A DNA stretch of 64,000 bases from Streptomyces sp. SCSIO 30461. GTDB lineage: Bacteria > Actinomycetota > Actinomycetes > Streptomycetales > Streptomycetaceae. The translations under genes were made by a program, and so were the position numbers. Positions 1 to 13,955 of this stretch are shown here, piece by piece (positions within the stretch are counted from its first letter, which is position 1; every line of letters begins with the position of its first letter). The notes beneath the pieces were generated by a model. It worked only from the letters and a program-made list of their open reading frames with translations. It was not told the origin of the DNA and made no database searches. Where the stretch lies: positions 4,704,001-4,768,000 of the forward strand of contig NZ_CP146101.1 in assembly GCF_037023745.1 (NCBI RefSeq), read 5' to 3'.

Positions 1-1
1 C

Positions 2-2065
2 GGCATCGTCCACCAGGTCAACCTGGAACGGCTCGCCACCGTCGTCACCGAGGGTCCGGACGGCACCCTGTTTCCTGACACCGTACTCGGCACCGACAGC
101 CACACCACCATGGTCAACGGCCTCGGCGTGCTCGGCTGGGGCGTCGGCGGCCTGGAGGCGGAGGCCCAGATGCTGGGCCTCGCCCAGCCGATCCGCATCC
201 CTCAGATCGTCGGCGTCTGCCTCACCGGCGCGGTGAGCCCCGGCACCTCGTCCACCGACGTGGTGCTCGCCCTGACCCGCCGGCTGCGCCAGGAGAACGT
301 ACGCGCCCTGATGCTGGAGTTCACCGGCCCGGGCGTCGCCGAGCTCTCCGCGCCCGACCGCTGCACCATCGCCAACATGGCTCCCGAGTACGGCGCCATG
401 TCCGCGTTCTTCCCGGTGGACGAGGAGATCCTGGACTATCTGCGACGCACCGGGCGCACGGAAGCCGCGGTGGCCCGGGTACGGGACTACTGCCTGCGCC
501 AGCGGATGCTGCGCGACGGCACCAAGCCCGTCTTCGGGCGGACCATCGACTTCGACCTCGGCGAGGTCGGCCCGAGCCTCGCCGGCCCGAGCCGCCCCGA
601 CCAGCGGATCTCCGTCGGCGAGCTGCCCGCCTCCTTCGCGACGCTGCACCCCGGCGAGATCCGCACCGAGGCGGACGTCTCCGACGGCGACCTGGTCATC
701 GCTGCCATCACATCCTGCACCAGCACCTCCAACCCGAAGGCGATGCTGGCCGCCGGACTGCTCGCCCGGCGCGCAGTCGAGCGAGGCCTGACGGTGCCCG
801 GGCACGTCAAGACCAGCCTCTCTCCCGGCTCCCGCGCGGTCACCCGCTACCTGGCGGACTCCGGGCTGCTCGCCGACCTGGAGAAGCTGGGTTTCCATGT
901 CACCGGATACGGCTGCATGACCTGCAACGGCGGCAGCGGCCCGCTCAACCCAGGGGTCGGCGAAGCCGTCGACAGCGCGGGCCTCACGGTTGCCGCCGTG
1001 CTCAGCGGCAACCGCAACTTCGAGTCCCGCGTCCACACTCAGGTCCGCGCCGGTTACCTCGCCTCCCCAGCCCTCGTGGTCGCCCTGGCTCTGGTCGGCA
1101 ACGTTCGCGCTGACCTGGAGAACGAGCCGCTCGGCAGGGACAGCGACGGCCAGCCCGTCCACCTGCGGGATCTGTGGCCGCACAACGGCGAACTGCGGGA
1201 ACTCGAAGACCAGTTCGTTACCCCCGAGGTGTTCGCGCACGACGAAGCGCCCAGCGCGTCCTGGGATGCGATCACCGCACCGGACAGCGAGGTGTACGCC
1301 TGGGACGAGACCTCCACGTACATCCGGCCCCCCGCCTACGTCGAACCGGCCCCCGCCCTCGGCCCGCTGACCGGAGCCCGTGCCCTGCTCGCGCTCGGCG
1401 ACGACATCAGCACCGACCACATCTCACCGGTCGGCGCCATCCCGGCGGACTCGCCCGCCGGGCGACACCTCATCGAGCGCGGGGTCCGCGACTTCAACTC
1501 CTACGGATCGCGCCGTGGCAATCACGAAGTGATGGCCCGCGGCACCTTCAGCAACCCCAGGCTGCGCAATCTGCTGGTCGGCGAGGGTGACAGCGGCGGT
1601 ACGACACTGCACCTGCCGAGCGGCGCAGTGCTGCCCGTCTTCGACGCCGCCCGGCGCTACACCGAAGCCGACACCCCCCTGATCGTGCTGGCCGGCCGCA
1701 GCTACGGCATGGGCTCCTCCCGCGACTGGGCCGCCAAGGGACCCTGGCTGCTCGGTGTCCGGGCCGTCCTCGCGGAGAGCTTCGAGCGCATCCACCGCGC
1801 CAACCTGTGCGCCATGGGCATCCTGCCTCTGCTGCTGCCCGCCGGGTACGGCTGGGCCGACCTCGGCCTGACCGGCCGGGAGCATTTCGCGCTGGACCTG
1901 GACCTGGTGCGGGAGACCGGCGAGGTGCGGGTCACCGCCGACGGGAAGGAATTCACCGTACGGGCCGATGTGCAGTCGGCGGGGGAGTGGGACGTCCTGC
2001 TGGCCGGCGGCACGCTGCCGTACCTGCTGCGGCGGATGCACGCGGAGGAGGGCGCGTCCTCATGA
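2..2065 (+). CDS. Aconitase-like isomerase/dehydratase, 5' end outside window
   Basis: Single-chain AcnA-type aconitase; the reading frame is open from base 2, so roughly the first 180-200 residues are missing. Seen: GTDSHTTMVNGLGVLGWGVG, the cluster cysteines in ITSCTSTSNP and YGCMTCNGGSGP, GDDISTDHISPVG, and the C-terminal swivel domain with YGMGSSRDWAAKG. The usual CIGNSGP stretch is CNGGSGP here, a change next to the [4Fe-4S] site that could alter the substrate. Aconitases interconvert hydroxy-tricarboxylates through an alkene. Divergent copies act in phosphinothricin (Pmi) and FR-900098 (FrbA) biosynthesis on phosphono- or phosphinomethylmalate. The stop overlaps the next start (ATGA). 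The company of ligases and a monooxygenase suggests a biosynthetic rather than TCA-cycle role (inference). Confidence 0.9.
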   Translation, partial: GIVHQVNLERLATVVTEGPDGTLFPDTVLGTDSHTTMVNGLGVLGWGVGGLEAEAQMLGLAQPIRIPQIVGVCLTGAVSPGTSSTDVVLALTRRLRQENVRALMLEFTGPGVAELSAPDRCTIANMAPEYGAMSAFFPVDEEILDYLRRTGRTEAAVARVRDYCLRQRMLRDGTKPVFGRTIDFDLGEVGPSLAGPSRPDQRISVGELPASFATLHPGEIRTEADVSDGDLVIAAITSCTSTSNPKAMLAAGLLARRAVERGLTVPGHVKTSLSPGSRAVTRYLADSGLLADLEKLGFHVTGYGCMTCNGGSGPLNPGVGEAVDSAGLTVAAVLSGNRNFESRVHTQVRAGYLASPALVVALALVGNVRADLENEPLGRDSDGQPVHLRDLWPHNGELRELEDQFVTPEVFAHDEAPSASWDAITAPDSEVYAWDETSTYIRPPAYVEPAPALGPLTGARALLALGDDISTDHISPVGAIPADSPAGRHLIERGVRDFNSYGSRRGNHEVMARGTFSNPRLRNLLVGEGDSGGTTLHLPSGAVLPVFDAARRYTEADTPLIVLAGRSYGMGSSRDWAAKGPWLLGVRAVLAESFERIHRANLCAMGILPLLLPAGYGWADLGLTGREHFALDLDLVRETGEVRVTADGKEFTVRADVQSAGEWDVLLAGGTLPYLLRRMHAEEGASS

Positions 2066-3438
2066 CGCACATTCTCGACCGGCTCGGCCTCCGGCGGGCC
2101 GTCGACGCCGATGCTCTCACCGCCGGGGCGAAGACCTTCGTCCCGGTGCACGTCGGTACCCACGACGTGCCCATCGGCGCCCTCCTCGACGCACTGGACG
2201 CCGACCCGACGCTGCTGCCGCCGCGCACCGGCCACCTGGGCAACTGGGAGGACATCGCGGCCGGCCGCTCCGGACCGATGGACTTCAACACCGCGATCTG
2301 CGGCGGTGGTCACGGCTATCCGCTGATCTACGGCTTCACCCGCACCGAGGCCGACACCGAGGGCGGCGACGAGGCGTACCAGCCCGGTTCGCTCATCGAC
2401 CAAGGCAGGCGGCACACCCTTCCGCTGCACACATGGGACGGCACCCGCTTCGTCCGCCGCGACCGCGGCAAGCCTCTCTTCTGCCCCCTGGTGCAGGCGG
2501 AGGTGGACGGGCAGCTGGTCCCACTGGTCGACCTGCACTGGCAGCGGATGCTCGCCCTGCCCGGCTACCGCTTCAGGCAGTGGGCCGCCGCTCTCACCGA
2601 CAAATCCCCGCTCGTCACCGACATGCTCGCCCTCCTTCTGGAACAGGCGGCCGCGCAGGGCCGCAACCAGGCGTTCGCCGAGCTGATCAGCCAGGCTGTG
2701 CGCCTGGACGGTGAGGTGCGCCGCTGCGATCTGCGGCCGGACGGCGCCGGTTTTGTGCTCGACGGTCAGCGCTATCCCTCGGCCCACGCCCTCGCCGAGG
2801 CAGTCATGCTCACGGTGCACGCGCTGGTGGAACCGGCAGAGTTCTTCGCGCGGCTGCCCGGACTACCGCCGGTCCTGCCAGTGATGTCGCTCCAGCTCAC
2901 CAACGTGCTGTTCGCGCTGCTCGACATGCACCACCCGGACCCCCCGGCGGGCCCGCCCGAGAGCCCTTTCATCACCCATCTCCACTGGGGCGCCCGGGCC
3001 ATGGCCGGCTGCCCGCCCCGGCGCGGTGGCTATCTATCCCGGCGCTCCACGGTGCGCTCCCTTCGCGCCATCACAGACCCGTTGGTCCAGCACTTTGACG
3101 CGGCCAACCCCGTGGCCTTCGTGCTGCTGCCCGCCCAGGCCTTCATGCTCTGCCCACCGAGTACGTCACCGTACGACGCCGAAATACTGGGGGAGCTGTT
3201 CCGCGGAGTACGAGCGGCGGGCCCTGAGGTCGCCTACGACACGACGCTGACCTGGCTGGACGGCAACCGCGACCGACTCTCGGAGTATCTGCGCGGCCGC
3301 TTCAGGAGCGGCAGCGGAGTGCCCGCCGACAACACCCTGCGCGACCCCGCCGTGCCCATCGAGCCCGAGGGCTTCCGCGAGCTGACCTTCCGCCAGGCAT
3401 GCGGTGTGGTCGGGGCGTTCGAGGAGGTACTGGGATGA
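2062..3438 (+). CDS. Unrecognised 458-aa protein inside the biosynthetic operon
   Basis: I do not recognise this family. The ATG at 2062 overlaps the aconitase stop by 4 nt, and its own stop overlaps the next ATG by 4 nt, so it is translationally coupled on both sides and very likely functional in the same pathway. The protein appears soluble, with no signal peptide or membrane span. The N-terminal part has HVGTHDVPIG and an FNTAICGGGHGYPLIYGF block rich in Gly/His. The C-terminal half has HLHWGARAMAGCPPRRGGY and AFVLLPAQAFMLCPP. The paired His and Cys residues could bind metal or form an active site, but this is speculation. Absence of a familiar motif makes it the best candidate for a new enzymatic step. 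Confidence 0.85.
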   Translation: MTHILDRLGLRRAVDADALTAGAKTFVPVHVGTHDVPIGALLDALDADPTLLPPRTGHLGNWEDIAAGRSGPMDFNTAICGGGHGYPLIYGFTRTEADTEGGDEAYQPGSLIDQGRRHTLPLHTWDGTRFVRRDRGKPLFCPLVQAEVDGQLVPLVDLHWQRMLALPGYRFRQWAAALTDKSPLVTDMLALLLEQAAAQGRNQAFAELISQAVRLDGEVRRCDLRPDGAGFVLDGQRYPSAHALAEAVMLTVHALVEPAEFFARLPGLPPVLPVMSLQLTNVLFALLDMHHPDPPAGPPESPFITHLHWGARAMAGCPPRRGGYLSRRSTVRSLRAITDPLVQHFDAANPVAFVLLPAQAFMLCPPSTSPYDAEILGELFRGVRAAGPEVAYDTTLTWLDGNRDRLSEYLRGRFRSGSGVPADNTLRDPAVPIEPEGFRELTFRQACGVVGAFEEVLG

Positions 3439-4433
3439 GGCTCGCCCACCGCGAGGTCGTCATCGCCCTCATGGAGCCGTTCGTCAGCAACACCGGCGTC
3501 ACCACCGAAGTGCGCCAGAGCATCGTCGAGATGACCTGGGAGGGACTGCTCGGACACGGGACCGCGCGCGGCGCCGACCCCGCGGAACTCGACACCTGCG
3601 CACGGCTGCTGGCCGGGACCTCACCGTACGGACTGCACGGTGCGCTGGATCGGCTTACGCGGGTGAGCCCCGCGACCCGGTCCGCCGTCGACATGGCGCT
3701 GCACGACCTGCTCGGCAAGGCGGCCGGGCAGCCCCTGCATCGGCTCCTCGGTCTCGACGGTCTGCCCGTCGAGCCCACCGCGCTCTCCATCGGCGCCTGT
3801 TCGGACGACGAACTCGTCAAGCAGGCAGGGCAGTTGGCCGACTGGCCGATCCTCAAGCTCAAACTTACCCCCGAGGACGACGGCAGTCGCGCCGGCGTTC
3901 TCCGCTCGGTCTATGACGGCCGCATCCGCGTTGACGGCAACGGCTCCTGGACCCCTGACCAGGCCCTCCGTGTCGCCGAGAAGTTGCACCGGCACGGCGT
4001 GGAGCTGCTGGAGCAGCCCGTCGCCCCCGGCACGCTCGACGACCTCCGGTACGTGCACGAACGTTCCCCGATCCCCGTCTTCGCCGACGAGGACTGCATC
4101 GGACGCGAGGACGTGCTGCGGCTCCGCGGCCGCGTGAGCGGCATCAACATCAAGCTGGTCAAGTGCGGCGGCCTGACCCACGCGCACGAGATGCTCACCC
4201 TCGCCCGGGCCTGCGGCCTGAAGACCATGCTCGGCTGCAAGGTGGAGAGCGCTCTTGGCACCACCGCCATGGCGCAGCTCGCCGGTCTCGCCGACCACCT
4301 CGACCTGGACGGACCGGTAGGCCTGCTCGACGACCCGTTCACCGGCGTACGCATCGACCGCGGCGTTCTCGCTCTGCCTGTGGCGCCCGGCATCGGCGCC
4401 ACCCCCGTCCACGAAATCCACGGAAAGGACTGA
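3435..4433 (+). CDS. Enolase-superfamily protein, dipeptide-epimerase-like
   Basis: 332 aa, muconate-lactonizing subgroup of the enolase superfamily, closest in motif pattern to L-Ala-D/L-Glu and other dipeptide epimerases. Seen: an LKLKLT strand carrying the first catalytic Lys, metal ligands in RVDGNGSW, LLEQPV and FADEDC, the second catalytic Lys in NIKLVKCGGL, and LGCKVESALGTTA near the barrel end. Such enzymes epimerise an alpha-carbon next to a carboxylate by a two-base mechanism with Mg2+. The ATG at 3435 overlaps the upstream stop, and the next gene starts 1 nt after this stop. In an operon with two ATP-grasp ligases, a role on a dipeptide or on an acid-amino acid conjugate is plausible. 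Cycloisomerase activity cannot be excluded. Confidence 0.88.
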   Translation: MRLAHREVVIALMEPFVSNTGVTTEVRQSIVEMTWEGLLGHGTARGADPAELDTCARLLAGTSPYGLHGALDRLTRVSPATRSAVDMALHDLLGKAAGQPLHRLLGLDGLPVEPTALSIGACSDDELVKQAGQLADWPILKLKLTPEDDGSRAGVLRSVYDGRIRVDGNGSWTPDQALRVAEKLHRHGVELLEQPVAPGTLDDLRYVHERSPIPVFADEDCIGREDVLRLRGRVSGINIKLVKCGGLTHAHEMLTLARACGLKTMLGCKVESALGTTAMAQLAGLADHLDLDGPVGLLDDPFTGVRIDRGVLALPVAPGIGATPVHEIHGKD

Positions 4434-4434
4434 C

Positions 4435-5394
4435 ATGCGGCTTCGCTGCGCCGTGCTCGACGACTTCCAGAACATCGCCACCACCGTGGCCGACTGGAGC
4501 CCCGTCCAGGAACGTGTGGAGGTCGTCAGCTTCACCGAGCACTTTGCCACCGAGAACGAACTGGCCTTCGCACTTGAGAACTTCGACATGGTGGTGACCC
4601 TGCGAGAGCGCGTGCCGTTCCGCGCTTCCCTGCTCGACCAGCTTCCCCGGCTCAAGCTGCTCATCGCCTCTGGCATGCGCAACTCGGTGATCGACTACGT
4701 GGCCGCCGAGCGCAACGGGGTGATCGTGTGCGGTACGGCAAGCACGTCGACCCCACCGGTCGAGCTGACGTGGGCGCTGCTACTCAGCCTCGCCCGCGGC
4801 ATCGTCACCGAGAATGACGCGCTGCGCGCAAACGGCCCCTGGCAGTCCACGGTCGGTGCCGACCTGCACGGTCGGCGTCTCGGCCTGCTCGGCCTGGGGA
4901 AGATCGGCAGCCGGGTGGCTCAGGTGGGCCTCGCCTTCGGCATGGAGGTGGTGGCGTGGAGCCAGAACCTCACCAAGGAACGCGCGGAGGAGGTCGGCGT
5001 CCAGTTGGCTGCCTCCAAGGAGGATCTCCTTGCCACCAGCGACTTCGTCTCCGTCCACCTCGTCCTGAGCGACCGGACCCGCGGGCTGCTCGGAGTGCCA
5101 GAGCTGGCCCTGCTCAAGTCGACCGCCTACCTGGTGAACACCTCGCGGGCGGCCCTTGTCGACCAGGACGCCCTGCTTGCTGTGCTGCAGGAGGGGCGGA
5201 TCGCCGGAGCCGGAGTTGACGTCTTCGACGTCGAGCCCCTGCCCGCCGCCCATCCCATGCGCACCGCGCCCCGGCTCTTGGCCACCCCCCACCTCGGCTA
5301 CGTCTCGCAGAGCAACTACCGCACCTATTACGGCCAGGCCGTCGAGGACATCCAGGCGTTCCTGGCCGGTGCTCCCGTACGGCGCCTCGGCTGA
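4435..5394 (+). CDS. D-isomer-specific 2-hydroxyacid dehydrogenase
   Basis: 319 aa NAD(P)-dependent dehydrogenase of the SerA/PdxB type. Seen: Rossmann motif GLGKIGSRVA near residue 145, catalytic Arg in VNTSRAALVDQDAL, Glu in GVDVFDVEPLP and His in TPHLGYVS. It has no ACT regulatory domain. It would interconvert a 2-oxoacid and a D-2-hydroxyacid in the pathway. The closest biosynthetic parallel I know is the SerA-like dehydrogenase of phosphinothricin clusters. The start is 1 nt after the epimerase stop, so it is part of the coupled operon; the next gene follows after about 50 nt. Confidence 0.93.
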   Translation: MRLRCAVLDDFQNIATTVADWSPVQERVEVVSFTEHFATENELAFALENFDMVVTLRERVPFRASLLDQLPRLKLLIASGMRNSVIDYVAAERNGVIVCGTASTSTPPVELTWALLLSLARGIVTENDALRANGPWQSTVGADLHGRRLGLLGLGKIGSRVAQVGLAFGMEVVAWSQNLTKERAEEVGVQLAASKEDLLATSDFVSVHLVLSDRTRGLLGVPELALLKSTAYLVNTSRAALVDQDALLAVLQEGRIAGAGVDVFDVEPLPAAHPMRTAPRLLATPHLGYVSQSNYRTYYGQAVEDIQAFLAGAPVRRLG

Positions 5395-5445
5395 CCTCGG
5401 CCCTGGCCGAACTTTCCCCGTCCCACGCCCATTGGAGAACCACCG

Positions 5446-6798
5446 GTGAGCCCGCACCGCCGCATGATGAAGCTCGGCGCCTTCCTTCCCGCGCCGGGGC
5501 ACCACGTCGCCGCCTGGCGGCACCCCAACGCCCGTCCCGACGGCGGACTCGACTTCGACTACTACCGCTCATTGGTACAGACCGCCGAACGCGGCAAGTT
5601 CGACATGATTTTCCTGTCCGACGGAGCCGGAGTGCGTACCAAGTACAAGGACGCCGACGAGCTGAGCCGTCAGGGCCGGATGGTGCACTTCGAGCCCCTG
5701 ACACTGCTCTCCGCGCTCGCTGTACACACCGAGCGCATCGGTCTTACGGCGACTGCATCCACGACTTACAACGAACCGTTCACTGTTGCCCGCCAGTTCG
5801 CCTCGCTCGACCACCTCAGCGCGGGCCGCTCCGGCTGGAATGTCGTCACCTCGGCGACCGACGCCGAGGCACGCAACTTCAACCTGGACAAGCAGCCAGA
5901 GCACGCCGCTCGCTACCACCGCGCCCGTGAGTTCATGGAGGTCGTCACCGGCCTGTGGGACAGCTGGGAGGACGACGCTTTCCTCTACGACAAGGAGTCG
6001 GGCCGGTTCTTCGACCCGGACAAGCTCCACATCCTCGGGCACAGGGGCGAGCACTTCTCAGTACAGGGACCGCTCAACGTAGCTCGTCCGCCCCAGGGAC
6101 ATCCGGTGATCGTGCAGGCCGGCTCCTCGCCGGACGGCCAGGATTTCGCCGCCCGCTGGGCGGAGGTCGTCTTCACGGTGCAGCAGACTCTGGACCAGGC
6201 GCAGACCTACTACCGCGGGCTGAAGAAGCAGATAGCCGACTACGGCCGCAACCCGGACGACGTGAAGATCCTGCCAGGTGCGTTCATCGTCGTGGGCCGC
6301 ACGCAGGCGGAGGCCGAGGACAAGTACGCCACCCTCCAGTCGCTGGTCGACCCAGTTGTCGGCCTCGGAATGCTCGCGTACCAGCTAGGCATGATCGACA
6401 TCTCCGGGTACCCGCTCGACGGTCCACTGCCCGAACTGCCCGCCGTCGAGGGCAGCACCAGCAAACAGCAGGTGATCTACGAGCAGGCCAGGAGACAGGG
6501 CCTGACCATCCGTGAGCTGTATCTCGCCGTCGCGGCCGGGCGGGGGCACCGCTTCCTGCTCGGCACGGCCGAGTCGATTGCCGACGAGCTGGAGGACTGG
6601 TTCGTCAACGAGGCTGCCGACGGCTTCAACATCATGCCCGACTTCCACCCCGACGGTCTGGACGCCATCGTCGACCTGCTTGTCCCCGAACTGCAGCGCC
6701 GCGGGCTCGTACGCACTGAGTACGAGGGCACCACGCTCCGGGAGAACCTCGGGCTGCCGCGGCCTGCCTTCCCGTCCGAGCCGGGAACGAAGACGTGA
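5446..6798 (+). CDS. NtaA/SnaA/DszA-type flavin-dependent monooxygenase
   Basis: 450 aa, GTG start with GGAGAA 9 nt upstream. Belongs to the bacterial-luciferase-like superfamily, nitrilotriacetate/pristinamycin monooxygenase branch: KLGAFLPAPGHHVAAWRHP at the N-terminus, GRSGWNVVTSATDAEARNF, ERGKFDMIFLSDG and PVIVQAGSSPDGQDFAARWA. These enzymes use FMNH2 supplied in trans and O2 to hydroxylate or cleave C-N or C-S bonds. The following gene is a flavin reductase overlapping by 4 nt, so both components of the system are present. In pantaphos biosynthesis a monooxygenase of this kind hydroxylates a phosphonomethylmaleate; together with the aconitase homologue this suggests oxidation of a small polycarboxylate or phosphonate (inference). 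Confidence 0.93.
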   Translation: MSPHRRMMKLGAFLPAPGHHVAAWRHPNARPDGGLDFDYYRSLVQTAERGKFDMIFLSDGAGVRTKYKDADELSRQGRMVHFEPLTLLSALAVHTERIGLTATASTTYNEPFTVARQFASLDHLSAGRSGWNVVTSATDAEARNFNLDKQPEHAARYHRAREFMEVVTGLWDSWEDDAFLYDKESGRFFDPDKLHILGHRGEHFSVQGPLNVARPPQGHPVIVQAGSSPDGQDFAARWAEVVFTVQQTLDQAQTYYRGLKKQIADYGRNPDDVKILPGAFIVVGRTQAEAEDKYATLQSLVDPVVGLGMLAYQLGMIDISGYPLDGPLPELPAVEGSTSKQQVIYEQARRQGLTIRELYLAVAAGRGHRFLLGTAESIADELEDWFVNEAADGFNIMPDFHPDGLDAIVDLLVPELQRRGLVRTEYEGTTLRENLGLPRPAFPSEPGTKT

Positions 6799-7292
6799 CC
6801 GTCGACGCATCGGCGCTGAGGTCCGTCCTGCGTTCGCACGCCTCGGGGGTCGCAGTACTCACTGCCTCTGGGGCGAACGGCCCGGTAGGAGTGACCGTCA
6901 CGTCGCTCAACTCCGTCAGCGCCACACCGGCACTGATCTCCGTCTCGCTCGCCGAGGTTTCGAACACCTTGGCCCAGATCAAGGACTGCGACCGGTTCGG
7001 CGTACAGCTGCTCGGCGCGCACCAGGCGGACGTGGCCCAACGGTTCGCGATGTCCGGCATCGATCGGTTCGCACCGCCCACCGGCTGGCACCACGGCGCC
7101 CACGGAGTGCCGCTTCTTGACGACTGCCTGAGCTGGCTGGTCTGTTCTCGATACCACCAGGTCAGGCTCGGTGACCACCACCTGCTGGTGGGTGCCGTCG
7201 ATCACGTGGAGCGCGGGATGCCGGGCGCCAGCCTGGTGCATCTGCACGGGAACCTGCAGCCGGTCACAGCCCTCACGCCAGCAAGGACCTGA
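6795..7292 (+). CDS. Flavin reductase partner of the monooxygenase
   Basis: 165 aa flavin reductase-like domain protein (NtaB/SnaC/HpaC type) that reduces FMN or FAD with NAD(P)H and hands it to a separate oxygenase. Seen: RSHASGVAVLTA near the N-terminus, GVTVTSLNSVSATPALISVS for flavin binding, FGVQLL and a C-terminal GDHHLLVGAVDHV strand. The GTG start lies inside the monooxygenase stop (GTGA, 4-nt overlap), which ties the two products stoichiometrically. Length matches the family. Confidence 0.93.
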   Translation: MTVDASALRSVLRSHASGVAVLTASGANGPVGVTVTSLNSVSATPALISVSLAEVSNTLAQIKDCDRFGVQLLGAHQADVAQRFAMSGIDRFAPPTGWHHGAHGVPLLDDCLSWLVCSRYHQVRLGDHHLLVGAVDHVERGMPGASLVHLHGNLQPVTALTPART

Positions 7293-7295
7293 AGC

Positions 7296-8528
7296 ATGCC
7301 CAAAATTCTGTTGCTCTCTCGCCAGCCGCTCGTCACGCGCCCTCTGCAGGAGTGGCTGGACCGCACTGCGGACGACATCGTCCTGGTCACGACTCCCAAG
7401 GCGGTCGTCGGTTCGGAGAGTGCCCTGGCCGCGTGCTTTCCACAGCACAAGCTTGTTGACGACTACCACTCCTGGTCCACGGAGCAGGCCGCCGAGGAAG
7501 CAGCCCGCGAGCACGGGGTGGACCTCGTTGCGAGCACGAGTGAGAGCGATGTACTGCGGGCCGCCCGGCTGCGGGCCCGCCTGGGTTTGCCGGGACAGGA
7601 CGTCGCGTCCGCGACTGCGTATCGGGACAAGGTGGTGATGAAGCAGCTGGCGCGCGCGGCCAGCGTCCGCGTCCCCGCGTTCGCCCCGGTCGACAACCCG
7701 CAGGATCTGCTCGACTTCATCGAGGCCGAAGGCTATCCCGCCGTGGTCAAGCCGCGCTCCGGGGCGGGAGCCGAGGGCGTGGCGATCCTGCGCGCCGCCG
7801 CAGACGTGACCGCCTTCCTCGGTCGTGAGCGGACATCGGACGTGCCCTATCTGCCGGGCCAGTGGATGGTCGAGAGCTATGTGACCGGCGATTTCTTCCA
7901 CGTCGACGGCATCATGCAGAACGGTCGGATCGTCTACGCCTGGCCAGGGCAGTACAGCGGAGGCCTGGCGGAGCGGATCCGTGACCAGCTGCATGTGGGG
8001 AGTGTCCTCCTCGCGCCAGAGGATGAGCGCACTGCAGTCATGATGCGGATGGCCAAGGATGTCATTGCGAGCCTGCCCGCGGCCGCGTTGCCCCTCGCCT
8101 TCCACCTCGAGGCATGGATCGGCCAGGACGGCGTACCGGTGCTGTGCGAGATCGCCAGCCGTGCGGGCGGATCCCTGATCGGCGAGCAATTCGAGCGCGC
8201 CTTCGGCATTCACTTGGCGCGGGAAGGGCTTCGGGCGCAGTGCGGCTTGGCTCTCGCCCAGACCGCCCAGCCTGCGGCCCCCTTGGTTGCCGTTGGCTGG
8301 GTGCTCCTCCCGCCTGGGCACGGCACCTTCGTACCACCAGCCCAGCCCTGCCCGGTTCCCGGGACGGAGGTCACGCTGCTGCGGGAACCCGGGGCGCATT
8401 GCGAGGGTGTGGAGCACGTAGGGGACGGGGCTGCCAGCGTTTTCGTCCAGGCCGATACCGCCGAGGCGGTCCGCAAGCTCCTTGCCGAAGCCATGGAGTG
8501 GTGGCACGAGAACACCGTCTGGCGCTAG
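7296..8528 (+). CDS. ATP-grasp ligase A
   Basis: 410 aa ATP-grasp carboxylate-amine ligase. Order: an N-terminal preATP-grasp domain (PKILLLSRQPLVTRPLQEWL), a central ATP-binding part with AVVKPRSGAGAEGVAIL, and the metal-binding end VLCEIASRAGG. The C-terminal 100 residues look like the substrate lid of bacilysin synthetase-type (BacD) dipeptide ligases. It would activate a carboxylate as an acyl phosphate and join it to an amine. It starts 3 nt after the flavin reductase stop with AAGGA upstream. A perfect palindrome covers its stop codon. Confidence 0.88.
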   Translation: MPKILLLSRQPLVTRPLQEWLDRTADDIVLVTTPKAVVGSESALAACFPQHKLVDDYHSWSTEQAAEEAAREHGVDLVASTSESDVLRAARLRARLGLPGQDVASATAYRDKVVMKQLARAASVRVPAFAPVDNPQDLLDFIEAEGYPAVVKPRSGAGAEGVAILRAAADVTAFLGRERTSDVPYLPGQWMVESYVTGDFFHVDGIMQNGRIVYAWPGQYSGGLAERIRDQLHVGSVLLAPEDERTAVMMRMAKDVIASLPAAALPLAFHLEAWIGQDGVPVLCEIASRAGGSLIGEQFERAFGIHLAREGLRAQCGLALAQTAQPAAPLVAVGWVLLPPGHGTFVPPAQPCPVPGTEVTLLREPGAHCEGVEHVGDGAASVFVQADTAEAVRKLLAEAMEWWHENTVWR

Positions 8529-8536
8529 CGCCAGAC
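8517..8536. promoter_or_regulatory. 20-bp perfect palindrome across a stop codon
   Basis: The two arms GTCTGGCGCT and AGCGCCAGAC abut with no spacer and include the TAG stop of ligase A. The gap to ligase B is about 78 nt, the longest in the operon. The palindrome could form an RNA hairpin that tunes downstream expression, or be a dimeric protein site. No U-tract follows, so it is not a standard terminator. Confidence 0.5.
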
Positions 8537-8606
8537 CGGCGCCTCGCGTCGAGTGGACGTCAGCCCGCTTCCCTTCCCCCTTCACAACCAGAGAGGACAA
8601 GCAGCC

Positions 8607-9863
8607 TTGTCTGAGCACGTTCTGATCGTCGGCCCAGGCCGCGACTTTCCCGCCCGTATCCGCCGTGCTCAGCCCGGCACCCGAACCACGGTGATCTGCC
8701 AGCTGGACTACATTGGCAAGGTTCGCACCCCCGGCGAGAACGCCCGGGTTATCGGCGTGCGCAGCGATGCACCCGAGCAGGAGTGGATCGACTTGGCCGC
8801 AGCGGTGCACGCACTGCACCCCTTCACTCGGATTGGCACCTTCGGTGAACGGGACCAGGACCACTACGCAGTGATCGCTGAGGCCCTGGGCTTGTCCGCC
8901 CACAGCCCGGTCACGGTATCTCTGGTCCACGACAAGGAAGCCATGAGGGTCCGTCTGCGCGAGGCAGGGGTCGACTCCACCAACAGCACCCGAGCTGCCG
9001 ATCTTGACGAGCTGCACACCTTCGTAAAGCAGTACGGCCTGCCCTGTGTGGTTAAGCCGATCTCCAGCTCGGGCAGTGCCGGCGTCACCAAGGTGATGCA
9101 CGAGAGCGAGCTGGCCGACGCCTTCGCAAGGGCCGGCGGCAGCTATCTCGGACTGTCGAACACGGGTGTCTTGGCCGAGGAGTTCCTTGATGGCCCGCAA
9201 TTCAGCGTCGAGGCCTTCTCCGAGCTGGGCGAGCACCAAGTGGTGGTCATCACCCGCAAGTTCTCAGAGCCGGAGACCTTCGTTGAACTCGGCCATGTGT
9301 CTCCCGCAGAGCTACCCGCAGACTTGTGTGAGGAGATCCACGCCTACGTGGGCGGCGTACTCGACGCACTGGGGGTGGAATTCGGCCCCACCCACACAGA
9401 GGTTGTCCTTGGTGAAGAGGGCCCTCGTCTGATCGAGACCCATGTCCGCATGGGCGGAGACCAGATCCCGGCTCTGACCCTCGACGCGACCGGCGTCGAT
9501 GTGGACGACTGCACGGCCCGCCAGACACTGGGGGAGAAGGTCTTGCCGGGTATCCGCGCCACCCTCGCCGAGGACCGTCCGGCACATAGCTCGGCCATCT
9601 GGTTCGCTTCGCTCGACGCCACCGGAGTGCTCGACGGCGTGTCCGGCCTCGATGAGGCCCGGGTACTCCCGGGCGTGAGCGAGATCGCTGTTCTGGCGCG
9701 CCAAGGTGCGGAGGTTGGCAGGCTCGAGACATCAGAATCACGAGTGGCATACGCACGTGCGCTTGGAAAGACTGCCGACGAGGCAGTGACCGCCGCGCGG
9801 GCGGCTGTGGAATGCCTTGAATTCCGGCTGAAGGTTCCCCATTGGCGTGGCGTGACGGTGTGA
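8607..9863 (+). CDS. ATP-grasp ligase B
   Basis: 418 aa. The TTG at 8607 is chosen because GAGAGGA sits 9 nt upstream and the family N-terminus (SEHVLIVGPGRDFPARI) begins there; the frame is open further upstream without a ribosome site. ATP-grasp fold: YGLPCVVKPISSSGSAGVTK for nucleotide binding, LAEEFLDGPQFSVEAF, and the metal-ligand strand LIETHVRMGGDQIP. It is only distantly similar to ligase A, so the two probably perform different couplings. It resembles PurK/carbamoyl-phosphate-like and BL00235/CarB-type ligases used in small peptide or amide biosynthesis. It is the last gene of the operon; IS debris follows within 100 nt. Confidence 0.88.
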   Translation: MSEHVLIVGPGRDFPARIRRAQPGTRTTVICQLDYIGKVRTPGENARVIGVRSDAPEQEWIDLAAAVHALHPFTRIGTFGERDQDHYAVIAEALGLSAHSPVTVSLVHDKEAMRVRLREAGVDSTNSTRAADLDELHTFVKQYGLPCVVKPISSSGSAGVTKVMHESELADAFARAGGSYLGLSNTGVLAEEFLDGPQFSVEAFSELGEHQVVVITRKFSEPETFVELGHVSPAELPADLCEEIHAYVGGVLDALGVEFGPTHTEVVLGEEGPRLIETHVRMGGDQIPALTLDATGVDVDDCTARQTLGEKVLPGIRATLAEDRPAHSSAIWFASLDATGVLDGVSGLDEARVLPGVSEIAVLARQGAEVGRLETSESRVAYARALGKTADEAVTAARAAVECLEFRLKVPHWRGVTV

Positions 9864-9964
9864 GAGTGCGGTTCGCGCCGTGATGCCGGGTTTGGTGTCG
9901 CTCGATGGGGTGACGTTGGAGCATGTCTGCCGGTCAGGCGTTCGGGGTTCGCTTGGGTGGCCGG

Positions 9965-10303
9965 ATGAGTGACCGCAAGCCGTACCCGAGTGATCTCACC
10001 GACGAACAGTGGCAGTTGGTCGAGCCCGTGATCAGTGCCTGGAAGGCCGAGCACCCCTCGGCCACCGGTCACCAGGGTAGATACGCGATGCGGGAGATCG
10101 TCAACGCGATCCTCTACCAGAACCGCACCGGCTGTCAGTGGCAGTACCTGCCGCACGATCTGCCGCCGAAGAGCGCGACGTACTACTACTTCGCCGCCTG
10201 GCGCGAGGACGGCACCGACCAGACCGTTCACGACCTCCTGCGCTGGCATCTGCGCGAGAGCCGGAAGCGATTAGCCGACCCGAGCCTGGTGGTCCTGGGC
10301 TGA
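9965..10303 (+). pseudogene. IS5-family transposase, N-terminal fragment
   Basis: About 112 aa of an IS5-type first ORF: PYPSDLTDEQWQLVEPVI, NRTGCQWQYLPHDLPPKSA and TVHDLLRWHLRES, ending at ADPSLVVL where the DDE part should begin. The frame then hits a stop in unrelated sequence, so the catalytic half is lost. It marks the right edge of the biosynthetic cluster. Confidence 0.88.
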
Positions 10304-10443: not shown

Positions 10444-11130
10444 GTGTCCCAGTCTGTCATGGTGGGCGGTCCGCCCGACGTCGACGTGTTCGCTCCCGGC
10501 CATCTCGGCGAGTTGACACAGGTCCTCCCAGTTGAGCTCATCGACGCAGTCCTCGACGAAACTCGGTCGCTGCAGCGACGGTTGCGTAGCCTTCCGTCTC
10601 GAGTCGGGGTGTACTTCGTCCTGACCCTGGGCCTGTTCGAGCACTTGGGAGCACGTCTGGTCTGGACGAAACTGATCGGCACCGCCAGCGCCCCCAAGCA
10701 CGCGTTCGTCCGCTCCCTCGGCGCGGACGAAGTGATCGACTACCGCACCACCGACTTCCGCGACGCCGTCCGGGACGTCGACATGGTCCTCGACCCCCTC
10801 TCCGGCGACACCCGCAGCCGCTCCCTCGACGTGCTGCGCCCCGGCGGCGTTCTCGTCTCCCTCCTGCCAGCCACGGACGCCGACGAGGAGGCGAGGGCCG
10901 CAGCCCGCAAGATCCGCGTGGAGACCCTCCTGGTCGAGGCCGACCACGCCGGCATGAACACCATCGCGGACCTCGCCGAATCCGGCACCCTGCGCGCCCA
11001 CATAGAAGCCACCTTCCCCCTCGCCGAGGCGGCGAGGGCGCACGCCCTGGGTGAGACAGACCGGACCACCGGCAAGATCGTCCTCTCCGTGGACGCGGCA
11101 GCACGACCCTCCGAACTGCCGGGCGGGTGA
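10444..11130 (+). pseudogene. In-frame chimera: IS4 transposase N-terminus joined to quinone oxidoreductase C-terminus
   Basis: A 228-aa open frame with two unrelated halves. Residues 1-77 match the N-terminus of IS4-family transposases (ELIDAVLDETRSLQRRLRSL, then LTLGLFEHLGARLVW). From about base 10674 the sequence becomes the C-terminal half of a zinc-less NADPH:quinone oxidoreductase (SAPKHAFVRSLGADEVIDYR, then ALGETDRTTGKIVLSV). Upstream at about 10321, CAATGCCGCGTAGTTAAG resembles the terminal repeat of the IS4 element at 27.1 kb, so the IS left end is retained. The oxidoreductase lacks its catalytic domain and part of the Rossmann motif. A product is possible but probably inactive. Confidence 0.8.
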
Positions 11131-11550
11131 TGGCCCACTGGCGCGCGGTAGCGGAGAGCGCCGGGCGTCGAGGAGTCCCGGAGCAACCGCCTGCCGTGAC
11201 ACTCGGCGCCGAGGTCGCGGACTTGGCGGACTCGTCCGAGTCGATGTGCCCGGCCCTGAAGGGAGGCGCGAGTGAAATCGTCGACCGCATCGCGCTCAGG
11301 ATCAGCCGTGGCCTGGAGAGAGTCTGCCGTCGGCAGAGAGGCCCGCGACGTCGCACCGGCCCGTACGAGATGCGGCTCGGCGCAAGCGACGCCATGATCA
11401 GGACGCATCGCAGTCCACCCCGCTCGACGCCGTCGCAACTGCAACCCCGCCGGCTTCTGCGCCTTTGGAAGGTCCACGCCCCACGCCGGATCCGGGCGTG
11501 GACATGCCCACCCGAAACTTCGACCACGTCACCCGAGTAAAGGGCGTGTC
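11131..11550. other. Intergenic, no recognisable gene
   Basis: 420 nt between the oxidoreductase remnant and the DJ-1 gene. Short frames exist on both strands but none resembles a protein. Promoter elements for the DJ-1 gene are expected here but not obvious. Confidence 0.5.
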
Positions 11551-12261
11551 ATGAAAGTTCTGATTGTTCTCACCTCCCACGACGAACTGGGGGACACCGG
11601 CCGCAAGACCGGGTTCTGGCTGGAGGAACTTGCGGCACCGTACTACCGCTTCAAGCAGGCGGGCGCGCAGATCGTGCTCTCCTCGCCCCAGGGCGGCAGG
11701 CCACCGCTGGACCCCAAGAGCAACGAGCCCGACTTCCAGACCGACCAGACCCGGCGCTTCGAGGCCGACCCCGAGGCGACCCGGGCACTGGCCAACACTG
11801 TGCGCCTTGACTCGATCTCGGTCAGCGACTTCGATGCCGTCTTCTATCCCGGCGGGCACGGGCCACTCTGGGACCTGGCCGAGGACACCGTCTCTGCGCG
11901 GCTGATCGAAACGGCGCTCCGTTCCGGCAAGCCGGTCGGACTGGTGTGCCACGCGCCCGGCGTACTGCGACACACCGTCAACGATGACGGAACCGCGCTG
12001 GTCTCGGGCAGGAAGGTCACCGGATTCACCAACTCCGAGGAGGAAGCCGTCCAGCTCAGCAACATCGTCCCCTTTCTGGTCGAGGACGAACTCACCAGGC
12101 TCGGAGGGGTCTACTCCAAGACCGACGACTGGCAGCCCTATGTCGTGCAGGACGGTCTGCTGATCACCGGGCAGAACCCCGCTTCCTCGGCTTCCGCGGC
12201 TGACGCCCTGATGGAACTGGCCGGCAAGGGCGAGGGTGAGCGCGCACCCCGTGGCGTGTGA
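11551..12261 (+). CDS. DJ-1/PfpI-family protein (Hsp31-like, type 1 glutamine amidotransferase fold)
   Basis: 236 aa with the flavodoxin-like DJ-1/PfpI fold. Seen: KVLIVLTSHDELGDTGRKTG at the N-terminus, AVFYPGGHGPLWDL carrying the acidic and oxyanion positions, and the nucleophile elbow GLVCHAPGVL with the reactive Cys. Closest to the Hsp31/YhbO group of glyoxalase III or deglycase-like stress proteins. Start ATG at 11551, in a stand-alone position. It is intact, unlike almost everything on either side. Confidence 0.93.
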   Translation: MKVLIVLTSHDELGDTGRKTGFWLEELAAPYYRFKQAGAQIVLSSPQGGRPPLDPKSNEPDFQTDQTRRFEADPEATRALANTVRLDSISVSDFDAVFYPGGHGPLWDLAEDTVSARLIETALRSGKPVGLVCHAPGVLRHTVNDDGTALVSGRKVTGFTNSEEEAVQLSNIVPFLVEDELTRLGGVYSKTDDWQPYVVQDGLLITGQNPASSASAADALMELAGKGEGERAPRGV

Positions 12262-12548
12262 GGCATGCAGTGCCGACCCTGCGGGGCGTCAGCGCCGGGA
12301 GACGGTAGGGACGCAGGCGGCTGAGCTGTTCGGGCAGAAGACCAGCCTACGGAAGTGGCACGGCCGCTGCGGGTGAGCCGGAAGCCGGCCTGTCAGTGGC
12401 ACCGGACGTGGATGGGTGCGGTACGGCGGCGGTGGCCCCGGCCGGGTCATTGATGCTGTTGGTCAATTCCGGGGTCCGTGCGTCACATCGGCCTTCGAGA
12501 TCTGGTTGTGGTCTTGAAGGCCGACGTTGTCGTATGGGGTGGGTGCGG

Positions 12549-12645
12549 ATGTCGTTGCAGCAGAAGGGGTCTGGGGAGATTCCGGCGGAGACGGTGCGGG
12601 TGGCGCGGGCCGCGTTCCCGAAGGGGAGTCTGACGATCCGGCTGG
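12549..12645 (+). pseudogene. IS1182-family transposase, N-terminal stub
   Basis: The ATG at 12549 begins a short stretch typical of IS1182 transposases (ETVRVARAAFPKGSLTIRL) and then breaks off at about 12645, exactly where the opposite-strand histidine kinase remnant begins. The insertion probably removed the 3' end of the kinase. Confidence 0.65.
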
Positions 12646-13457
12646 TCGGCGAGGATGTCCAGATTGGTCCGCACGCTCATCAGCGGGGTGCGCAGTTCGT
12701 GTGAGGCCGCGGCCGAGAAGGAGCGGGCCGTGGCGAGTCCTTCGGCGGTACGAGCGGCCTGCTCGTCATATCGGGGCAACACCGTCTGGAGGGTGCGGGC
12801 CAGGTCGTCCACCTCGGCGAGCCCGGTCGGGGCATGCTCCAGCCGGGTCGAAGTGGAGCGCGGGTCGAGCCCGCTGGTGCGCTGCTGCAGGTGCCGCAGC
12901 GGCCGGTGGCCCGGGCGGCCACGGCCCTGGCGAGGAGGCCCGCCAGGGGCGCGGTCACCCCGGCGACGGTGAGGACACGGGTGCGGACGACCCCGAGTTG
13001 TTCCTCGCTCGTCGTATCGGGAGGGAACGGCCACAGCGTGCCGTCCACTCCGTTGCGCCGTCCGGTGATCCGCACCGACAGGGCCCGCCAGCCGGTGTCC
13101 CCGTCCCGCACCGTGATCGGCTCGGGGGCGTCGTCGGGAAGCGGTACGGACACGTCGGGCTGCGGTCCGCCCCAGGCGGTCCCGTCGGGTCCGATCAGCC
13201 GGACGCCCACATCGAGTGCGGCGTTGTACAGACCGCGCTCCCGCGCGCGCTCTACTGCCGGAGCGCGGTCCGTCACCACCGCCCGGAGCAGTCCGCGGGT
13301 GTTCCCGGCGACGACGGCGGCCCGTTCGCGCAACTGTGCGTCCTGCTGGGTGTGCGGATCCGGCCGCCACCAGTTGGACGAGCAGCCAACCGGCGCCCAG
13401 GACCAGAAGAGGGACGGTGATCCCCACCACGAGGGCGATCCGTGTGGAGAGCTTCAT
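12645..13457 (-). pseudogene. Sensor histidine kinase, frameshifted and truncated
   Basis: Starts as MKLSTRIALVVGITVPLLVL (membrane segment). An extracytoplasmic sensor region follows in another frame (TDRAPAVERARERGLYNAAL), then a HAMP-like stretch, then the phosphoacceptor H box ASHELRTPLMSVRTNLDILA in the first frame. At least two frameshifts are needed. The ATP-binding domain is missing, cut by an IS1182 stub. Its cognate regulator upstream is also broken. Confidence 0.82.
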
Positions 13458-13489
13458 GTGCGTGGACGGCCTCAGGCGGGCAGCGAGCC

Positions 13490-13955
13490 TCACCGGCCTG
13501 CCGCCCCGGGGCCCGCGTCACGGGTGGTGCCTCCGTCGTCGCGCAGGACGAAACCGACTCCCCGGACGGTGTGGATGGAGCCGGGGCCAGCCGTCGGCCT
13601 CCAACTTACGGCGCAGGTAGCTGACGAAGGTATCCACCACGCCCGTCCGGACGTCGAAGTCGTACCCCCCACACCCGGTCCAGCGACTGGTCCCGGGTGA
13701 GGACCACGCCCGCGTTGCGGGCCAGTGTCCTCGGCAGCTCGAATCCCGCCGGGTCAACGGCAGCAAGAAGCCGCCCAGTTGAGCCTCGCGGGCCGTGAGG
13801 TCGATGGTGAGGGATCCGGCCCGCAACCGACCGGAGCTCTCCGGTGGTCGCCGGCGCAGCAGGGCCCGCAACCGTAGCAGCAGTTCCTGGAGTGCGAAGA
13901 GCTTGACGAGGTAGTCGTCGGCACCGACCTGGAGCCCCGCGATCCGTACCAGGCC
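13490..13955 (-). pseudogene. OmpR-family response regulator, 5'-truncated and frameshifted
   Basis: What remains is the end of the receiver (VGADDYLVKLFALQELLLRL; the family usually has KPF) and the winged-helix domain spread over three frames: DFDVRTGVVDTFVSYLRRKL in one, IHTVRGVGFVLRDD in another. The first half of the receiver with the phosphorylated Asp is gone. It lies just upstream of the kinase remnant, in the normal regulator-kinase order. Confidence 0.82.

Follow-up and report, generated by a model that had tools for sequence, protein, structure and literature searches.

The 64,000-nucleotide stretch analysed here, called the window below, covers positions 4704001-4768000 of NZ_CP146101.1, contig 1 and the only contig of the 8.05-Mb genome of Streptomyces sp. 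SCSIO 30461 (G000). Its left end carries an operon for an aconitase, a protein of the Pfam family DUF6025, a dipeptide-epimerase-like protein (EPI), a 2-hydroxyacid dehydrogenase (HDH), an NtaA-type mono-oxygenase (LLM), a flavin reductase (FR) and two ATP-grasp ligases (ATPG1 and LAL). The product of this operon is probably a small exported peptide with one unusual residue, which would arise by tricarboxylic acid (TCA) cycle-like chemistry on carrier-bound glycine, by way of aminocitrate. We deduce the substrates and the product from gene content, gene order, conservation, intact catalytic motifs and fusion architecture, which are read directly from the sequence. In its fullest form the proposal is that a fused citrate synthase uses carrier-bound glycine on oxaloacetate in a "glycine version" of the first TCA steps, that amino-aconitate is the key product, that DUF6025 is a new type of enzyme, and that the pathway is common to streptomycetes and a marine Vibrio plasmid; all of this together has, in our judgement, slightly less than an even chance of being right.

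Where does the operon begin? It is longer than first described and starts upstream of the window. The preliminary description, made from the window, had advised looking there for a citrate-synthase-like gene, an exporter and a regulator, and each of them was found. On the same strand, the 14 kb that precede the window (L009) carry genes first for a histidine kinase and a response regulator, then for a 320-amino-acid (aa) protein without a Pfam match, a transporter of the major facilitator superfamily (MFS), a YCF48-like beta-propeller and an RraA-like aldolase, and finally for a stand-alone adenylation (A) enzyme and a carrier-citrate synthase fusion; the kinase/regulator pair thus stands just before the MFS gene. 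The fusion gene and the aconitase gene share a 4-nucleotide (nt) overlap. With the A enzyme and the fusion at its head, the operon appears to open with amino-acid activation and a citrate-synthase-type condensation. The expected chemistry changes accordingly, the carbon nucleophile now being an amino acid.

The fused citrate synthase and its partner enzymes

The fusion protein consists of a carrier domain (PF00550, 22.3 bits) and a citrate synthase domain (PF00285, 363 bits). In all 11 fusions read, the carrier Ser (in WDSL or WDSM) is intact, as are HGGA, GFGHRVYR and NVDLY, which we take to be the motifs of the catalytic His, His and Asp of citrate synthase; S. lilacinus (L026) was left out of this alignment and of that of the aconitases, as its genes for the two proteins are in separate pieces. 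The best NCBIfam model for the synthase domain is 2-methylcitrate/citrate synthase II, at 375 bits under a cut-off of 421. Is the fusion private to this pathway? A plasmid search suggested so: a citrate synthase match was obtained in 249 records, and only two of these, both from Vibrio tubiashii, have a place that covers at least 80% of the query. This idea was overturned by the search of family genomes, in which fusion-wide matches (query start at residue 8 or before) occur, among the matches listed, in nine of 394 genomes: seven with the operon and two distant ones of 35% identity; weaker fusions may lie beyond these matches. The two distant fusions, of the streptomycetes G341 (L087 11122-12531) and G260 (L089, within 10763-13858), sit in another kind of cluster, which has an A enzyme and a flavin reductase (by BLAST to the operon studied here) and, by eye, a crotonyl-CoA-reductase-like gene in both genomes and an acyl-CoA-dehydrogenase-like gene in G341.

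What would be loaded on the carrier? An A domain with Asp235 and a carrier with a phosphopantetheine Ser, the features of activation of the nonribosomal peptide synthetase type, are both present, and no condensation domain of Pfam was found in the operon proteins scanned. The nearest solved A enzymes are 8k4r, which we take to be VinM, and 6akd (IdnL7). The substrate code reads DLFFLCLIAK in 10 of 10 A genes, even in that of Vibrio, whose product is 40% identical overall; this count leaves out S. sp. AW19M42 (L029) and G175 (L033/L034), in which the gene crosses the edge of the stretch examined. Code positions were assigned by hand from motifs and the GrsA positions, and an alignment with IdnL7 agrees with them. 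D235 presumably stands for an alpha-amino acid as substrate. L236 and C301 correspond, judging from their equal spacing, to L248 and C316 of AlmE, which are thought to allow glycine-specific activation (PMC11253843). The putative substrate of the A enzyme is glycine.

The operon aconitase is an old paralogue, 47-51% identical to the housekeeping aconitase of the genome. Its Cys ligands are kept together with NRN and SSRD, presumably the substrate-arginine motifs of aconitase, while CNGGSG and CT[STH]TSN replace CIGNSG and CTNTSN in all 11 operon members aligned. EPI has the motifs KxK, VDGN, LEQP, ADED, N[IV]KL, DLDG and GCK in 12 of 12 members aligned. Two catalytic lysines (in KxK and NxKL), metal ligands D/E/D and a DxD near the C-terminus, the last being the rule for dipeptide epimerases, are thus found in every member. 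GCK, likewise in all 12, stands where three solved relatives and the epimerase of a second cluster of this genome (L011, see below) have GCM, and its lysine might possibly contact an extra carboxylate.

As to the ligases, ATPG1 matches PF13535 at 27.6 bits (cut-off 27), has 4wd3, which we take to be RizA, as its nearest chain and shows no LAL_C2 domain at E ≤ 0.001, and the nearest relatives of LAL are 30vh and BL00235. Fold and domains place LAL among the L-amino acid ligases, to which ATPG1 is linked by its ATP-grasp fold and nearest chain, and dipeptide synthesis is predicted for both on this strong family basis. The 458-aa protein that had been called unknown belongs to DUF6025 (score in Table 1; curated cut-off 25 bits), and a second Pfam match in it was not found even at E ≤ 10. 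Its predicted model has a mean predicted local distance difference test score (pLDDT) of 76.6 and a predicted template-modelling score (pTM) of 0.80, with residues 54-106 poorly defined; a fold search of the PDB gave 35 matches at E ≤ 10 and none at E ≤ 0.001.

Distribution, the Vibrio plasmid and gene layout

The order A enzyme, carrier-citrate synthase, aconitase, DUF6025, epimerase, (HDH), LLM, FR and ATPG1 is kept in 11 streptomycete genomes including that of SCSIO 30461, which indicates that the operon is not a chance assembly. These 11 are the carriers in the family sample plus eight loci from a scan of named genomes, four of which appear to be loci of the family sample and were merged with them. 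In S. sp. AW19M42 the edge of a contig falls within the A gene, so that the operon copy starts there, and that of S. lilacinus has its genes in pieces, with a ligase between synthase and aconitase. In most loci LLM is the most conserved operon protein, 81-92% identical to the 10 other streptomycete copies. HDH is present in 10 of the 11 operons and was not found in that of Streptantibioticus silvisoli, which has a 3-hydroxyisobutyrate-dehydrogenase-like gene nearby. The second ligase, LAL, varies: it holds the equal position in seven of the 10 other genomes at 71-79% identity, a different LAL lies upstream of the A gene in S. silvisoli and G179, and it is the LAL that is misplaced in S. lilacinus. 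The RraA gene was seen in four of the 11 (SCSIO 30461, K. indigofera, XY006 and G175) and the beta-propeller gene in five (the same four and TRM49041); the propeller protein of SCSIO 30461 (L009 about 6983-9634, ~883 aa) shows no obvious signal peptide by eye. A ketopantoate-hydroxymethyltransferase-like gene is found in the variants of S. silvisoli (L036 1-7948) and G179 (L037 3256-4221), and in S. silvisoli two aminotransferases and an AurF-type N-oxygenase adjoin the core. These extra genes perhaps mean a different partner amino acid.

DUF6025 itself is rare. It occurs in eight of the 394 family genomes and none of 14 controls, and seven of these eight carriers have the operon (7/394). It was found in one of 394 genomes of the class sample, that of SCSIO 30461, and in three of 396 of the phylum sample at E ≤ 0.001, over the cut-off again in this genome only. 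The cluster around the DUF6025 gene of the eighth carrier, G001 (L038 5341-15156), has a FAD-dependent enzyme, two diiron/haem-oxygenase-like proteins, an acyl-CoA ligase and hydrolases, all named by eye.

A search of plasmids with the DUF6025 protein gave two records, both of V. tubiashii. On its plasmid p251 the streptomycete gene set is present in a rearranged row: HDH, A enzyme, ATP-grasp protein, MFS, citrate synthase, AcnA, LLM, DUF6025, ATP-grasp protein and an enolase-type gene. The citrate synthase has an N-terminal carrier domain there too, and the LLM is 64% identical to that of SCSIO 30461. Fused citrate synthases of Vibrio and streptomycetes group apart from eight reference citrate synthases (ultrafast bootstrap, UFBoot, 99), and the operon aconitases of both group apart from five references (UFBoot 100), in small, unrooted trees of seven operon sequences plus these references, which came from plasmid matches and the genome of SCSIO 30461; one synthase reference from the latter, L045, whose match contains a stop, was entered as its open frame. 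Such grouping fits one ancestral pathway, and the presence of homologous clusters in two phyla speaks for a product that is useful and under selection.

In the window, all eight genes that had been listed are present, each at the position and with the family given to it, as judged from open reading frames and Pfam/NCBIfam profile searches (Table 1). According to the preliminary description, most neighbouring genes overlap by 4 nt or stand 1-3 nt apart. Such spacing holds for five of the seven junctions, which are, in gene order, a 4-nt overlap, a 4-nt overlap, 1 nt, 51 nt, a 4-nt overlap, 3 nt and 24 nt; the gaps of 51 and 24 nt depart from it. The last one, between ATPG1 and LAL, becomes 78 nt if LAL starts at the later of its two candidate sites.

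Table 1. Operon genes in the window and the element that follows them
Feature	Position in window	Strand	Basis or remark
ACN, aconitase AcnA paralogue, 843 aa	1..2065 (3′ part, 687 codons in window)	+	start at 4703534, 467 nt before the window
DUF6025 protein, 458 aa	2062..3438	+	PF19490, 668.8 bits
EPI, enolase-superfamily dipeptide-epimerase-like protein, 332 aa	3435..4433	+	profile matches, active-site motifs
HDH, D-isomer-specific 2-hydroxyacid dehydrogenase, 319 aa	4435..5394	+	profile matches
LLM, NtaA/DmoA-family FMNH2-dependent mono-oxygenase, 450 aa	5446..6798	+	TIGR03860, 600.8 bits
FR, flavin reductase partner, 165 aa	6795..7292	+	PF01613
ATPG1, ATP-grasp ligase, 410 aa	7296..8528	+	nearest solved relative 4wd3, L-amino acid ligase
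LAL, L-amino acid ligase with LAL_C2 domain, 436 aa	8553..9863 (start possibly 8607)	+	PF13535 and PF18603
IS4/5-type transposase fragment, 3′ boundary of the operon, outside the pathway	9923..10303	+	DUF4096

Other parts of this genome carry related genes. About 50 kb upstream of the MFS gene of the operon lies a second dipeptide-type cluster (L011, G000:4628001-4648000) with an L-amino acid ligase (66% nucleotide identity to LAL), an MFS protein, a class IV aminotransferase, a FemAB-like protein, an Ldh2-type dehydrogenase, the dipeptide-epimerase-like gene mentioned above and an AurF-type N-oxygenase; a radical-SAM-like protein was named there by eye only, with no Pfam match at E ≤ 1e-5. 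By eye, the same IS4/5-type transposase stretch is near both clusters (9923-10303 of the window and 3603-4067 of L011). At G000:6388648-6389412, among unrelated neighbours, there are scraps of a second copy of operon genes: a stretch of 127 aconitase residues at 78% identity and the C-terminal 89 residues of RraA at 88%.

Proposed chemistry and competing explanations

How could these enzymes work together? The stand-alone A enzyme would charge the carrier domain of the fusion with glycine, and the citrate synthase domain would use the alpha-carbon of the glycyl-S-carrier as nucleophile on oxaloacetate, so that aminocitrate, HOOC-CH(NH2)-C(OH)(COOH)-CH2-COOH, is released. The dedicated aconitase, acting on the CH2 side, may convert it to amino-aconitate or amino-isocitrate. 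The former would be a carboxylated vinylglycine, a beta,gamma-unsaturated amino acid, and vinylglycine-type compounds are a kind of inhibitor of pyridoxal phosphate enzymes; the latter could be oxidised by HDH. LLM with its flavin reductase, HDH and DUF6025 might then tailor the amino acid, where LLM may oxidise the nitrogen or the alpha-carbon. The two ATP-grasp ligases, for which the family basis is strong, would join the tailored residue to ordinary amino acids. Within the dipeptide, the epimerase would set the configuration at the alpha-carbon of that residue, and export of the peptide would fall to the MFS protein. If this is true, citrate synthase can use aminoacyl-carrier thioesters for carbon-carbon bond formation, a new kind of reaction, for which we know of no precedent and found none among the literature matches listed. 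The pantaphos route would also gain a counterpart that does without phosphorus, a role could be assigned to the uncharacterised DUF6025 family, and a compact set of ~10 genes would be at hand for new peptide antimetabolites.

It is to be noted that several observations weigh against this proposal. The first group concerns the A code. Among eight A domains outside such operons, 43-48% identical and picked among the best 15 of 3192 plasmid records, one from Azospirillum (L069, 45% identity) carries exactly this code, three (L067, L071 and L074) differ at one or two positions, and four at five or six. Thus, DLFFLCLIAK marks a subtype of A domain rather than this pathway, and the argument that an identical code proves the same substrate is weakened. 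Furthermore, the pocket of DltA, which activates D-Ala, also has Leu and Cys (PMC11253843). CNGGSG likewise loses strength as a private mark of the operon aconitases, as a Roseibium reference has CAGGSG. The DUF6025 protein of G001, 35% identical, belongs to a different cluster. The distant fusions of G341 and G260 have neither the carrier Ser nor the loop with the second catalytic His, so that the fused arrangement can evidently be kept where this catalysis is lost; a pseudo-enzyme with a new role is possible there. Since both features can be lost in this way, their retention in the operon fusions is not trivial. Finally, the HDH of Vibrio is just 33% identical to that of SCSIO 30461, no flavin reductase is annotated within the Vibrio cluster, and both of its ligases are nearer LAL than ATPG1; late steps of the pathway may therefore differ between the two.

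If the code does not fix the substrate, could the carrier be loaded with another small amino acid, such as D-Ala, L-Ala, L-Ser or a beta-amino acid, to give a substituted aminocitrate? We regard this as rather unlikely, and still as the most serious of the alternatives. VinM and IdnL7, the nearest solved enzymes, are reported to accept Gly, L-Ala and L-Ser, the DltA pocket points the same way, and so does the model of 2-methylcitrate/citrate synthase II that scores best, under its cut-off, on the synthase domain. However, C217/A285/T318 of IdnL7, which are credited with its Gly/Ala/Ser range, are Leu/Cys/Ala here, alanine would require the formation of a quaternary carbon, and D235 argues against beta-amino acids. 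Another idea, which seems improbable to us, is that the producer protects itself with this aconitase as a spare copy insensitive to the drug, and that the product inhibits aconitase or the TCA cycle. Indeed, an enzyme of the aconitase family sits inside a biosynthetic operon, and a citrate-like product could conceivably bind aconitase; but the paralogue is old, it keeps its place between the fusion and DUF6025 in 11 streptomycete operons, and residues beside its Fe-S ligands are changed, as expected for an altered substrate. The product might also be a cyclic-hydroxamate dipeptide of the alahopcin type, in which a C6 amino acid is joined to L-Ala. The carbon skeleton of that amino acid matches glycine and oxaloacetate combined, and the operon has a possibly N-oxidising LLM and two ligases. 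Nevertheless, two reductions would be required, one of them of a carboxylate to an aldehyde, while the operon has only one dehydrogenase, which makes this alternative very unlikely. Alahopcin itself is a natural cyclic hydroxamic acid, cited as a dipeptide antibiotic (PMC9712658).

The remaining two alternatives we reject. A 2-methylcitrate synthase-like domain, an aconitase, an NtaA-family enzyme and an RraA-like aldolase are all known in catabolism, and the preliminary description had itself named an ordinary catabolic operon upstream as fatal to its interpretation. Could the genes belong to a methylcitrate cycle or to aminopolycarboxylate breakdown? There is little chance of it: the upstream genes look biosynthetic, with an amino-acid A enzyme, a fused carrier, two peptide ligases, a dipeptide epimerase and an exporter in the same operon, the distribution in the family genomes is patchy, as given above, and a PF13714 profile search of the genome found no gene for 2-methylisocitrate lyase, presumably a member of that PEP-mutase/PrpB family, near the operon. 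The same search disposes of the phosphonate that had been suggested beside a peptidyl-linked polycarboxylate, and likewise of a phosphinate, by a route like those to pantaphos, FR-900098 and phosphinothricin. The downstream enzyme kinds do match the pantaphos (hvr) cluster (PMC7858074), but there is no phosphoenolpyruvate (PEP) mutase near 4.69-4.71 Mb, PF13714 matches lying at 1.32, 6.05 and 6.15 Mb (the last below the cut-off), and none is annotated in the Vibrio cluster; this pathway is hardly credible here. The peptidyl-linked polycarboxylate, on the other hand, fits an operon with a carrier-citrate synthase fusion and ligases, and that part of the earlier interpretation survives.

Comparison with known systems

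Is there any described cluster of this kind? As the preliminary description supposed, we found none: literature searches on the gene set, DUF6025, alahopcin and aminocitrate returned no described cluster among the matches listed, all open-licence papers, so that a subscription paper could exist. The single "aminocitrate" paper among them deals with a phosphonic analogue tried as an inhibitor. The parallel with pantaphos drawn earlier is a good one. The hvr cluster of Pantoea ananatis combines in one cluster type an NtaA-type mono-oxygenase, a flavin reductase, an MFS exporter, ATP-grasp proteins, which are suspected of peptide formation, and an aconitase-superfamily dehydratase (aconitase itself in type VIII clusters), and the logic proposed for it, in which a C2 acyl unit is condensed with an alpha-keto acid ahead of aconitase-type dehydration and NtaA-type oxygenation, would also be that of the present operon (PMC7858074). 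However, hvr starts with PEP mutase and joins acetyl-CoA to phosphonopyruvate, whereas the operon has no PEP mutase and its acyl unit would be an amino acid on the fused carrier; DUF6025, the dipeptide epimerase and the 2-hydroxyacid dehydrogenase are additions of the operon. By its gene content the operon would work like the pantaphos pathway without being a member of the phosphonate kind.

Individual steps have relatives elsewhere. BacD of bacilysin and RizA (4wd3) are stand-alone ATP-grasp ligases that join a non-protein to an ordinary amino acid, as the operon ligases are expected to do, but the operon has two such ligases and a dipeptide epimerase, and its special amino acid would be of other origin. 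VinM, IdnL7, AlmE and DltA are, like the operon A enzyme, single A enzymes for a small amino acid; in the present case, however, the carrier that accepts it is probably fused to the N-terminus of a citrate synthase, and the code is the DLFFLCLIAK described above. The bolagladin cluster, too, has drawn a homologue of citrate synthase, BolR, into natural-product biosynthesis, but BolR makes citrate from acetyl-CoA, and the available text mentions no carrier fusion (PMC7756342). The L-Ala-D/L-Glu epimerases YcjG and YkfB share with EPI the enolase-superfamily fold, and dipeptide epimerases of this kind use two lysines to epimerise the residue at the C-terminus of their dipeptide substrate (PMC5808125), whereas EPI has GCK instead of GCM and a biosynthetic operon around it. 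The pairing of ligase and epimerase recurs in an engineered penicillin route, in which the L-amino acid ligase TabS is followed by an enolase-type dipeptide epimerase; this route starts from Cys and Val, and no citrate synthase or aconitase is mentioned in the part of the paper available (PMC13338154). As a whole, the operon resembles peptide-ligase antimetabolite clusters, and its carrier-bound citrate synthase step would, if proved, be new among them.

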